A stretch of 64,000 nucleotides of DNA from an uncultured SAR86 cluster bacterium (GCA_902616715.1 CACMTR010000001.1:310001-374000), one strand, 5' to 3'; shown: positions 26,984 through 30,281, counted from the first letter of the stretch. Translations and numbers: made by a program. The notes: generated from the letters alone by a model not told the origin.

Positions 26984-27059
26984 GGGGCTATAGCTCAGTT
27001 GGGAGAGCGCTTGCATGGCATGCAAGAGGTCGTCGGTTCAAGCCCGACTAGCTCCACCA
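26984..27059 (+). tRNA. alaW: tRNA-Ala (anticodon GGC)
   Basis: A 76-nt cloverleaf including an encoded CCA. GGGGCTA (26984-26990) pairs with TAGCTCC (27049-27055) with one G-U. The D arm (AGCTCAGTTGGGAGAGC), the anticodon arm centred on GGC, and a T arm with GTCGG/CCGAC around TTCAAGC are all intact. The sequence is nearly identical to E. coli tRNA-Ala(GGC). Its 3' third, with nine flanking bases, is repeated at 30247-30281. The alaW name is by analogy with E. coli. Confidence 0.96.
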
Positions 27060-27069
27060 TTACAAGTCA
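27035..27069 (+). repeat. Attachment-site-like repeat, left copy inside tRNA-Ala
   Basis: The 3' part of the tRNA from the T stem through CCA plus nine flanking bases. It recurs at 30247-30281 (offset 3212) with 33 of 35 positions identical. This is the pattern left by integration at a tRNA 3' end. Confidence 0.7.
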
Positions 27070-27083
27070 TTAAACATAAGGTT

Positions 27084-29066
27084 TTGAGAATAATTCTTTT
27101 TTTTGTCTTTGTTTTGTTAACTTCTTGTGGCGGAGGTGGAGGAAGTATTTCTAATAATCCTGCACCTGAAGTTAATTTATCTGCAAGCAAAACTGACTTA
27201 TTAGTTCCAGGAAATACAACCATTCAGTGGAGTTCAAATAATAGTACTTCATGTTTAGCAACAGGTGATTGGTCTGGAACATATGGAACTTCAGGTACAG
27301 AAGTCATAAACATTTCTTCAGCTGGCACTAAAAATTTTATATTAACTTGTGAAGGACCAGGAGGATCAAATAATAATAGTATCTCTTTATCTTTAAATAC
27401 TGATCCATTGTATTCGTATCAATGGCATCTTAAAAATACTGGTCAAACAAATTTTGCTAGTCTAAGTGAGGGAACACATGACTTAAACATTGAAGATGTA
27501 ATTTCCTCAGGAATAACTGGAGTTGGCACAATTATTGCAATTGTTGATACAGGATTGGAACTCTCTCATGAAGATTTGAGTGCAAACGTTGTTGCTGGAA
27601 AATCATACGATTATTCAGATCAAGACAATAATCCTGAACCAATTAATTTCTTGGGTGATCATGGTACCTCTATTGCAGGTCTGACATCAGCAGTAGGTGG
27701 AAATAATATAGGTGTTAGGGGTGTCGCTCCAAATTCAAAAGTAGTGGGTTTTAACGTTATTGGAGGATCCAATAACACAATTTCAAATATGGTCGATGCT
27801 CTAGGCGGTGCTTCAGGCGGAGCAGATACTCAACAAGTTGATATTTTTAATATGAGTTTTGGAACAAATGCGGAAAGATTTTTTCCATCTCCTATAAACT
27901 CTTCTATAGAAGCGGCTTTTAAAAATGGCGCAGATAATCTTCGAAGTGGAAAAGGCGCAATCTACGTTACATCTGCTGGAAACCACTGGAGTTACAGAGA
28001 AAATTCAAATATATATAATTGCGGACCTAATTATGGGGTAAATAACTCAGCCGAAGGATTTCCTTGTTGGGATTCTAGTTTTGATACTAAATTAACTGTT
28101 CCCTATGTTATCGGTGTGGCTTCCTTGAAAGAATCTGGAGTCAGATCATCCTATTCAACACCAGGATCAAGTGTTTGGATTTCTGGTTTTGGAGGAGAGT
28201 ATGGAAATAATCAAAGTTATACAGGATTTACTGCTGTTGGAGGTAATAATCCGGCTTTAATGACAACGGATCAGTCTTCATGTTCCAAAGGCTATGTTAG
28301 AACTGGAATAGATGTTGGTTCAGGACAAAATATAAATTCTTTTCAAAGTAGCTCTCATCCTGAAAATCAAAATTGTAATTATACATCTACAACTAACGGC
28401 ACTAGTGCTGCAACACCAACTATAAGTGGAGTAATTGCTTTAATGTTAGAAGCAAACAACAATCTGACTTGGAGAGACGTGAAACACATTCTCGCCTCAA
28501 CTTCAGATCAAATAGATTCGAACCGTCAAAAAACATTTTTAGGTGTAAATCAACATAGATGGATTACCAACGCAGCAGGCTACAAACATCATAATTGGTA
28601 TGGATTTGGCAAAATTAATGGAGTAGCGGCAGTAGAGGCAGCGAGAAGCTATATATCCGGTAGTTTAGGTACTTTTAATGATTCGGGATGGGTTAGCAGT
28701 GGTACCATTAATACAAGCTTTGATAGTTTCACTAGAGCTATTTTTAATAATTCTGCTTTAAATGTTACAAAACCATTATCATCAAATGGAAAAATAGAAT
28801 TTATCAGAGTGAGAATATCTATGACTACTAGCAATCCCAATCATGTGGGTTTAGAGCTATTGTCTCCGGATGGAACAATCGTTCCTATACTATCCCCATA
28901 TTCAATAATTACGAATAATCCTTTATCTTCTCCTTTTGATATTGGAATCAACTCTCTTTACGGGGAGAACATAAGTGGTGATTGGAAGTTGATTGTTTCA
29001 GATTATACAAATGATGGCATTGGCGGAGTTATTAATTCTTGGCAGATTAGAATTTACGGAAACTAA
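27084..29066 (+). CDS. Subtilisin-like (S8) serine protease lipoprotein with C-terminal P domain
   Basis: A 661-residue exported peptidase starting at TTG 27084; the open frame extends back into the tRNA, which cannot be coding. The signal sequence MRIILFFVFVLLTSC ends in a lipobox, followed by five glycines. An Ig-like module (about 25-110, WSSNNSTSC to LTCEGPGG) comes next. The S8 catalytic domain has Asp155 (IVDTGLELSHED), His193 (GDHGTSIAG) and Ser441 (NGTSAATPTISG). A proprotein-convertase P domain (about 555-661) closes the protein. No I9-type propeptide is visible before the catalytic domain. A secreted protein gene starts one nt after its stop. The start codon is the least certain part. 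Confidence 0.85.
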   Translation: MRIILFFVFVLLTSCGGGGGSISNNPAPEVNLSASKTDLLVPGNTTIQWSSNNSTSCLATGDWSGTYGTSGTEVINISSAGTKNFILTCEGPGGSNNNSISLSLNTDPLYSYQWHLKNTGQTNFASLSEGTHDLNIEDVISSGITGVGTIIAIVDTGLELSHEDLSANVVAGKSYDYSDQDNNPEPINFLGDHGTSIAGLTSAVGGNNIGVRGVAPNSKVVGFNVIGGSNNTISNMVDALGGASGGADTQQVDIFNMSFGTNAERFFPSPINSSIEAAFKNGADNLRSGKGAIYVTSAGNHWSYRENSNIYNCGPNYGVNNSAEGFPCWDSSFDTKLTVPYVIGVASLKESGVRSSYSTPGSSVWISGFGGEYGNNQSYTGFTAVGGNNPALMTTDQSSCSKGYVRTGIDVGSGQNINSFQSSSHPENQNCNYTSTTNGTSAATPTISGVIALMLEANNNLTWRDVKHILASTSDQIDSNRQKTFLGVNQHRWITNAAGYKHHNWYGFGKINGVAAVEAARSYISGSLGTFNDSGWVSSGTINTSFDSFTRAIFNNSALNVTKPLSSNGKIEFIRVRISMTTSNPNHVGLELLSPDGTIVPILSPYSIITNNPLSSPFDIGINSLYGENISGDWKLIVSDYTNDGIGGVINSWQIRIYGN

Positions 29067-29067
29067 T

Positions 29068-29613
29068 ATGAATTTATTTAAAATTTGCTTATTTACTATT
29101 ATTTTCTTTAACTCTACTTTATTTGCTAGTTTGAATACCATTGAAAAAAATGATTTCATTTATCAAAAAAAAGAGGAAACTCCTATAGTAAAGTTTGATA
29201 TTAATAAAAAAATATTAAATGACTCCATAGTGCTTCAATGGGACCAGAAAACAAACATTGAAGGTTTTAAAAAATTAGGCAATTTTTTATACAAATTGAA
29301 TGCTGTTGAACAATCAAATGAAAATACAATAAACATAAATGAGAATAAAAAAAACCTAAAATTAGTAGAAGTTAGAGGACAAAAATATATGATTTCAGAT
29401 AGCTCATTTATAATTGAATTTGGACAAGAAATCGACAGACAAAAATTTAATAAGGAATATTCAATAATTCCGAAGTATGAAATGGGAAGTAGAACAGCTT
29501 ACCAACCTCTTGGGTTTGAGAATTTAAATGAAGTATTTAAAAGATTTGGTGTAGATGACAGAGTTATTTCCTTTGAACTTGATTTGATAGATCCGAATGT
29601 GGTTTTGCAATAA
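29068..29613 (+). CDS. Secreted protein of unknown function, partner of the upstream protease
   Basis: A 181-residue protein starting at ATG 29068, one nt after the protease stop. The signal peptide is about 1-20 (IIFFNSTLFA). No family is recognised with confidence. The C-terminal half (SSFIIEFGQEIDRQKF to FELDLIDPNVVLQ) has the feel of a subtilase propeptide: a beta strand, a helix with Lys/Asp, a second strand with RVISFELDL and a Pro-containing end that could sit in an active-site cleft. Because the protease lacks such a domain, this protein could act in trans as folding helper or inhibitor. That is inference only. Confidence 0.7.
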   Translation: MNLFKICLFTIIFFNSTLFASLNTIEKNDFIYQKKEETPIVKFDINKKILNDSIVLQWDQKTNIEGFKKLGNFLYKLNAVEQSNENTININENKKNLKLVEVRGQKYMISDSSFIIEFGQEIDRQKFNKEYSIIPKYEMGSRTAYQPLGFENLNEVFKRFGVDDRVISFELDLIDPNVVLQ

Positions 29614-29702
29614 TTTATTATTAAATTCTTAAAATTATGACTTTTATTTTCTAACTATTCTAGACGTCAGATAACTAATCATATGTAATTTATTCAATAC
29701 AA

Positions 29703-29753
29703 ATGAAAAACTTACCAATCCTCCTAATCCTTGTTTTGTTTGTGGTAACTTGA
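29703..29753 (+). pseudogene. Possible remnant of a lipoprotein gene (16-codon hydrophobic peptide)
   Basis: ATG at 29703 opens MKNLPILLILVLFVVT, then TGA. It looks like a lipoprotein signal peptide in which the Cys codon (TGT or TGC) has become TGA. Nothing recognisable follows. It may equally be a chance ORF. It lies in the 175-nt gap before the convergent secreted-protein gene. Confidence 0.3.
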
Positions 29754-29788
29754 ACCCAATCCTGAATTTGATAAGTTGGGACAGTGAA

Positions 29789-30166
29789 TTACTGAGTTAA
29801 AAATCCACTTCTTGAGATTTCTACTCTACATTCATCAAAACCAGCTTCTATTTTAGATTCCTGTGTATTTTCTTTAGAGACTTCGTTGAAGTATCGAGTA
29901 AATTCAGGACCAAAGTCTGCTAAATCTGGCGCTGTTCCAACCCAGTAAACATAACCTGAAGTTTCGTTAGAAAAAACTGGCGTCCAAACTTCAGCGCTAT
30001 AATCATAATTTTTTTCTTTCATAACTTTCATGAATTCCTCTTTAAGTTCTACTATTTCTTCAGCAGAACATCCTTCTATCAATTCCATTTTTATTACATC
30101 CTTGTAAGCAGCTGAAACAAAAGTTGAAATGGATATCATTAACATAGATAAAATGATTTTTCGCAT
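29789..30166 (-). CDS. Small secreted protein of unknown function
   Basis: A 125-residue protein with a clear signal peptide (RKIILSMLMISISTFVSAA). The mature part has two Cys (EGCSAEE and DECRVE), which could form a disulfide, and a helix rich in Lys/Glu followed by YVYWVGTAPDLADFG. The pattern is compatible with a small alpha/beta fold such as a dimeric alpha-beta barrel, but no family is claimed. A GGAGTAATC ribosome-binding site precedes the ATG. It is the last gene inside the tRNA-Ala-bounded segment. Confidence 0.75.
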   Translation of the reverse strand: MRKIILSMLMISISTFVSAAYKDVIKMELIEGCSAEEIVELKEEFMKVMKEKNYDYSAEVWTPVFSNETSGYVYWVGTAPDLADFGPEFTRYFNEVSKENTQESKIEAGFDECRVEISRSGFLTQ

Positions 30167-30227
30167 TGATTACTCCTTTATTTAAAATTTCATTCTAATT
30201 TAACTTTTAAATCTTTTAAACTATCCA

Positions 30228-30281
30228 AATGGCATAAGTGGTCATAGGTTCAAGCCCGACTAGTTCCACCAATACAAGTCA
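30228..30281 (+). repeat. Partial tRNA-Ala copy, right attachment-site-like repeat
   Basis: The core 30247-30281 matches 27035-27069 at 33 of 35 positions (GGTTCAAGCCCGACTAG, then TCCACCA, then TACAAGTCA). To its left, 30228-30246 aligns more loosely with the anticodon arm (ATGGCAT, AAG, GGTC). The 5' half of the T stem no longer pairs, and the D and acceptor 5' arms are absent, so it is not a functional tRNA. It marks the right end of a 3.2 kb insert. Confidence 0.8.

Follow-up and report, generated by a model that had tools for sequence, protein, structure and literature searches.

Analysis of the 64-kb window, which is the whole stretch of 64,000 nucleotides studied here (contig 1, positions 310001 to 374000, of a SAR86 genome of 1.16 Mb), revealed a single tRNA gene, a tRNA-Ala(GGC) predicted by ARAGORN at positions 26984 to 27059. 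SAR86 is an abundant, uncultured and streamlined ocean lineage, and its means of gene exchange are, to our knowledge, poorly described. Relatives were found by sequence and are given G numbers; public records name them SAR86 cluster bacteria. G012 is AG-891-K16, G021 is AG-337-B16, and G006 corresponds by sequence match to the MED-G141 record. The window's own family (40 genomes) is called f1, its genus g1, and a second family of the same order f3. The following features were assigned at and behind the tRNA gene.

26984 to 27059, plus strand: intact tRNA-Ala(GGC), attL-like left end of the island (ARAGORN; the upstream neighbour gene is the same in most same-genus relatives)
27015 to 27069, plus strand: left repeat copy, beginning in the anticodon loop and ending 10 nt beyond CCA (sequence comparison)
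27060 to 27089, plus strand: tRNA flank of ~30 nt common to other same-genus genomes, ending in TTTGAGA (locus comparison)
27082 to 29650, plus strand: horizontally transferred block, 96.9% identical to SAR86 AG-891-K16 (G012), which belongs to another genus (sequence comparison)
27084 to 29066, plus strand: kexin-like S8 subtilase lipoprotein with an Ig-like N-terminal module, a P-domain and a TTG start (PF00082, PF01483)
29068 to 29613, plus strand: secreted partner of the subtilase (directly downstream; profile and fold comparison)
29651 to 29786, no strand: junction debris, fragments of gene ends known elsewhere in SAR86 (sequence comparison)
29787 to 30231, minus strand: block with the gene for a 125-aa secreted protein (29789 to 30166), 92% identical to G002:C16 beside tRNA-Gly(TCC)
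30229 to 30281, plus strand: attR-like, decayed partial tRNA-Ala copy, beginning in the anticodon loop and ending 10 nt beyond CCA (sequence comparison)
30342 to 30704, plus strand: DsrE-like accessory gene outside the repeat and inside the variable segment (PF02635; own genome only, 1 of 41)
30762 to 31166, plus strand: gene of a DUF4267-like membrane protein (weak match), with which conserved genes resume beyond the variable segment (Pfam and loci)

Comparison of the tRNA gene with the downstream DNA confirmed the recurrence of its 3' part that the initial annotation had described, with 33 of 35 positions identical between 27035-27069 and 30247-30281. The repeat proved longer than this core and includes 10 flanking bases. 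Identity is 89% over 46 nt (27024-27069 and 30236-30281), and with a 2-nt gap the BLAST alignment reaches 27015 on the left and covers 30229-30281 on the right (87%, E ~1e-12). The displaced right copy opens in the anticodon loop (AATGGCAT..) and does not carry the 30-nt tRNA flank beyond 10 to 12 nt. Two bases are missing from its tRNA part, which also shows several substitutions; it therefore represents a decayed tRNA half and not a gene, in agreement with the initial annotation, which had not regarded the copy as a functional tRNA. The gene content ascribed to the segment was likewise present, including the subtilase start 25 nt past the tRNA (TTG at 27084). The claim that the segment contains no integrase was borne out by a genome-wide search: the window's genome encodes two tyrosine recombinases of ~300 aa (XerC/D size), neither of them near the segment, and no serine resolvase (PF00239). 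No match to PF00589 or PF00239 was obtained inside the segment.

Upstream of the tRNA, the genes are broadly conserved in g1 and in other f1 genera. Downstream, the f1 genomes are variable as far as the DUF4267-like gene or, if this is absent, as far as further core genes. Empty sites were found in seven f1 genomes (G007, G008, G011, G017, G022, G041, and G050), where the DUF4267-like gene begins ~13 nt past CCA. In the sister species G002, ~200 nt separate CCA from this gene, and the locus has neither the right tRNA fragment nor the DsrE gene. Since the DsrE-like gene occurs in the window's own genome only (1 of 41 genomes searched) and is absent from G002, the variable segment extends from ~27090 to ~30747 and not from 27060 to 30281; the DsrE-like gene is foreign, too. 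The empty site that had been predicted, in which the tRNA is followed directly by the DsrE gene, was accordingly not encountered, the DUF4267-like gene taking that position. The proposal of a single 3.2-kb element between clean att sites did not hold either: the left cargo junction lies at 27082 and not at the tRNA end, the conserved tRNA flank (27060-27089) stands on the left, and the cargo comes from at least two sources.

Homology with G012 starts at TTTTGAGA, where the tRNA flank of G002 reads GTTTGAGA. The subtilase block is joined 23 bases past the tRNA at a 7-base microhomology, the TTTGAGA shared by the end of the flank and the incoming block. In the 5' part of the subtilase gene, the window's genome is 97.3% identical to G012 and 97.0% to G006; the value is 98.9% between G006 and G012 and 85.1% between G012 and G021. 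A core gene is 70.9% identical between the window's genome and G012, and 94.0% between the sister species G012 and G021. Third codon positions account for 34 of the 56 differences from G012. The block identity of ~97%, compared to 71% for a core gene, indicates that the pair of subtilase and partner moved recently between genera. G002 is nearer to the window's genome in core genes than G006, yet it is without the insert whose left end G006 shares. The pair lies behind a 134-aa gene in G012, with two bases from stop to start, and behind another gene, 3.3 kb into a tRNA-Ala island, in G021; in G003, a related pair is located on the opposite side of the tRNA. The second source is represented by the secreted-protein gene, which in the sister species (G002:C16) ends ~80 nt before tRNA-Gly(TCC). 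The cargo of the window is a mosaic from at least two sources. A 40-nt gene-end remnant at 29749-29788 recurs at other SAR86 loci, some of them beside tRNA-Gly.

Searching for structural relatives of the subtilase in the PDB revealed Aeromonas ASP (3hjr and 3wqb) as the closest match. With an S8 catalytic domain, a P-domain, and ASP as the nearest solved relative, the protein is an ASP-type kexin-like protease. ASP and ORF2 form a protease-chaperone pair (PDB 3wqb; PMC5638518), and the SAR86 pair resembles it in having a kexin-like S8 protease with a P-domain and, directly downstream, a secreted and probably propeptide-like partner. The SAR86 protease differs in being a lipoprotein with an extra Ig-like N-terminal module, and the similarity of the partner is remote. 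In Shewanella, a short gene for a secreted protein comes after the subtilase relatives, and its profile matches the ORF2 chaperone of ASP (2mk4, 3wqb_B) with an E value of ~1e-3. The SAR86 partner was aligned with the Shewanella profile by hhalign over 81 columns (E value, 7e-4; probability only 26%). Fold comparison of the predicted C-terminal domain of this partner gave resemblances to subtilase prodomains and to ORF2 at Z scores of 5.9 to 6.9, values that unrelated folds reach as well; the match to the ORF2 fold itself (Z 5.9) stands among other ferredoxin-like folds. Judged from these profile and model comparisons, the partner is probably an ORF2-like propeptide or chaperone of the subtilase.

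In a survey of 22 subtilase loci of the order, the subtilase began no more than ~60 nt from the 3' end of a tRNA gene in the window and G006 (tRNA-Ala), in G024 (tRNA-Pro GGG), and in G063 and G030 (tRNA-Pro TGG). By reading of its ATG, the G194 subtilase starts ~70 nt behind tRNA-Ala, and the G030 subtilase is truncated right at CCA. The sequences of tRNA-Pro subtilase loci are found in L213 (reverse complement of 6916-7100; TGG, truncated at CCA) and L212:6021-6140 (GGG). Behind the tRNA-Pro loci, no convincing partial tRNA copy was seen. The search for a local subtilase promoter gave no match above shuffled sequences, and no terminator was predicted past the tRNA. Because neither was predicted between the tRNA and the subtilase, the gene would probably be transcribed by read-through from the tRNA.

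To find displaced tRNA halves elsewhere, 203 genomes of the order were searched and the loci were read. In nine other genomes, a complete tRNA-Ala(GGC) is accompanied, downstream on the same contig and strand, by a displaced 3' half. The distances from tRNA to half are 6.9 kb in G051, 1.0 kb in G054, 10.2 kb in G035, 3.3 kb in G110, 1.9 kb in G131, 3.8 kb in G086, 3.3 kb in G056, 5.5 kb in G146, and 0.7 kb in G176. In these nine and in the window, the 5' break falls within the anticodon loop, and its position is identical or differs by no more than a few bases. Five displaced halves are 100% identical to the tRNA over 45 to 48 nt, and the G051 copy has a T-arm of the type of another genus. The halves are known from two families, and the cargo mostly differs; as the initial annotation had suggested looking for, different cargo thus lies between the repeats, varying between genera. 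Comparison of G131 with G110, G116, G144, and G173 provides a before/after pair: the sequence directly past the tRNA in the latter four (ATCTGTTTTTAGGAATA...) is the sequence past the displaced half in G131, whose insert of 1.87 kb between tRNA and half carries two genes. An intact tRNA with a displaced fragment is the pattern expected from site-specific integration at a tRNA (PMC4383910). The shared 5' break in nine genomes, the empty sites, and the before/after pair strongly support integration at tRNA-Ala(GGC) for the order, and the gene is a SAR86 integration hotspot, a recurrent landing site for small cassettes. The integration footprint originally read from the window alone therefore stands at the level of the order; for the window's own island, integration is the conclusion that we infer.

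A chance or ancient tandem tRNA duplication, with the right copy decayed and genes inserted later, is scarcely credible, since the right copy does look like a decayed tRNA half but all ten genomes show the anticodon-loop half only and the 5' half is not seen.

The distribution of recombinases was analyzed further. No recognised integrase ORF is present in the cassettes of G056, G086, G131, G146, G176, G051, and G054, several ORFs of which have no Pfam match; the seven genomes contain tyrosine recombinases of XerC/D size only, one or two each. Because several assemblies are incomplete, this absence is not proof. Serine recombinases occur in 6 of 199 genomes. In G035, a large serine recombinase adjoins tRNA-Ala(GGC), and it is 52% identical to the one of G032 that overlaps tRNA-Ala(TGC). 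The 3' ends of these genes (L080:322-1881 for GGC and L206:10636-12213 for TGC) run into the tRNA-Ala genes, and both loci share a partner gene of 165/166 aa with no function assigned. G042 (L210:2027-10631) contains a complete tRNA-Phe(GAA) island, which encodes a tyrosine recombinase and bears a copy that is exact over 51 nt.

Inspection of the cassette ends revealed short repeats. Paired repeats are typical of the arm sites of tyrosine integrases. In four f3 genomes, TGGTGACCATA.TGGTGACCAAA or a near variant of it stands +27 to +31 past the tRNA; the repeat recurs ~120 nt before the displaced half in G086 and G056, and in a weaker form in G176. Between these shared ends the cargo of G056, G086, and G176 differs; the three sets are a metallophosphatase with a glycosyltransferase and PhoX, a 1015-aa helicase/nuclease, and a 151-aa protein. 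G131 has a separate pair (AATGTAGACAG twice) at both ends, and G158 (L308:1395-1600) has the same f3 cassette left end behind tRNA-Ala(TGC), not GGC. Tandem 12-mers, e.g., TTGGTCACAACT twice or TTTTGGTCACAC twice, are found in f1 at +64 to +79 past the tRNA in G001, G003, G010, G021, G042, and G051; in G054, they lie behind the displaced half. Of 87 loci, 10 have comparable tandem pairs downstream of the tRNA and 1 has such a pair upstream, the genomes being related and not independent. The 24-nt f1 tandem pair as in G010 and G054 is exactly present in two viral contigs (L314:167-315 and L315:5291-5439), ~50 nt from tRNA-Met and beside a T7-like RNA polymerase. The suggested search of phage contigs for a matching attachment site gave 0 matches to the window-type T-arm/CCA pattern in viral contigs, and neither the f3-type att and arm patterns nor the arm pattern TTGAGTCMCACT twice had a viral match. 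The anticodon-stem pattern matched one viral contig, which contains a phage tRNA cluster and was judged unrelated.

The cassettes (0.7 to 6.9 kb) hold one to six genes, with cargo including PhoX/PhoD phosphatases, glycosyltransferases, and a helicase/nuclease, and several bear candidate arm-type sites in tandem at one end or at both. The lack of a detected integrase gene, combined in some cassettes with tandem arm-like repeats on either side, suggests that a helper integrase mobilises them. The differing cargo within the same ends, the G158 left end, and the viral 24-nt pair led us to propose, tentatively and at somewhat less than even chances, that SAR86 has non-autonomous cassettes which keep a tRNA-Ala half and depend for their movement on a phage-type integrase acting in trans, and that the window holds a decayed remnant of this system. 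PhoX and PhoD phosphatase genes as SAR86 cargo behind tRNA-Ala are found in L251 and L253.

For the window itself, we consider it likely that the segment is an old, overwritten, integrase-free (CIME-like) accretion island at the tRNA-Ala(GGC) hotspot. An integrative element would have recombined with the tRNA 3' half, from the anticodon loop to CCA and flank. The insertion would have rebuilt an intact tRNA on the left and displaced the 3' half to the right (30229-30281), before the older accessory DsrE gene. The integrase would have acted in trans or been lost, with decay of the right half. Later recombination would then have replaced the cargo, the subtilase/chaperone pair coming from the tRNA-Ala island of another genus and being joined at TTTGAGA, and the secreted-protein gene presumably arrived from a tRNA-Gly locus. 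The order of these events is a reconstruction. Several observations count against the accretion island: no intact version of the window's element was found among same-genus relatives, the right copy is without the tRNA flank beyond 10 to 12 nt, and the f1 arm-like repeats lie at +64 to +79, none being present in the window or G006; the subtilase block occupies the place where they would lie.

The strongest alternative is an integrase-free replacement hotspot, in which homologous or microhomology recombination anchored on the tRNA and conserved genes exchanges the cargo and the right fragment is a passenger. Recombined DNA might in principle bring in a tRNA fragment passively, and the mosaic cargo joined at microhomology, the foreign-type T-arm of the G051 copy, and the location of the G003 pair opposite to that in the window all agree with this. 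We nevertheless regard it as unlikely, since a single break point in two families would not be expected from recombination alone, several displaced copies are 100% identical over ~48 nt, and some cassettes have tandem repeats at both ends. The satellite-like reading of the initial annotation, taken as a reduced phage satellite still mobile as a 3.2-kb unit, would account for the small size and the repeats at both ends, but it is very improbable: no integrase, primase, terminase, or regulator was recognised in the segment, nor were satellite core genes by Pfam, the right att is decayed, 0 matches were obtained among 50,697 phage records with no viral contig carrying the att sequence, and the cargo was put together from separate sources.

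The accretion island was compared with known systems. A cis-mobilizable element (CIME) derives from an ICE or IME, keeps attL and attR, and is devoid of recombination genes (PMC5704250). The window's island likewise has attL- and attR-like ends by comparison with relatives, the right one decayed, no recombination genes, and accretion at a tRNA 3' end; it differs in that no ICE/IME parent was seen, cassettes go down to 0.7 kb, and one end is overwritten. The tRNA-Lys additive flexible genomic island of 'Ca. Methylopumilus' carries variable inserts of 330 bp to 42 kb by repeats of the last 20 bases of the tRNA (PMC10872708). SAR86 shares with it the streamlined pelagic host and small variable inserts beside tRNA-end repeats, with differing cargo at one site in relatives, as in an additive island. 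Unlike there, the tRNA concerned is tRNA-Ala, the displaced copy starts in the anticodon loop and spans ~48 nt, and some relatives have arm-like tandem repeats. Tycheposons are marine tRNA-bordered cargo islands with a tyrosine recombinase (PMC10872708, PMC11389934); nutrient genes (PhoX and PhoD in SAR86 relatives) are a further likeness, but the window island and most SAR86 cassettes contain no tyrosine recombinase. By the Islander definition of a tRNA island (PMC4383910), the regenerated tRNA and the far-end fragment are present and an encoded integrase is not. Islander requires an integrase (PMC4383910), and such cassettes would escape island finders of this kind.

The new element of these results is a cassette family with shared ends and no detected integrase, of which the window is an old, overwritten example and not a clean element; the hotspot is wider than the reading of a single sequence could show. 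A shared tRNA-Ala site with small integrase-free cassettes would explain swaps of single surface or phosphorus-acquisition genes in genomes of ~1.2 Mb, and the helper integrase can be sought by means of the shared ends. The tRNA-Phe(GAA) island in L210 has tandem 11-mers just ahead of its copy and no recognised capsid genes, and an element by guaA (L209:10619-12543) has a serine resolvase and a tyrosine recombinase adjacent to each other.
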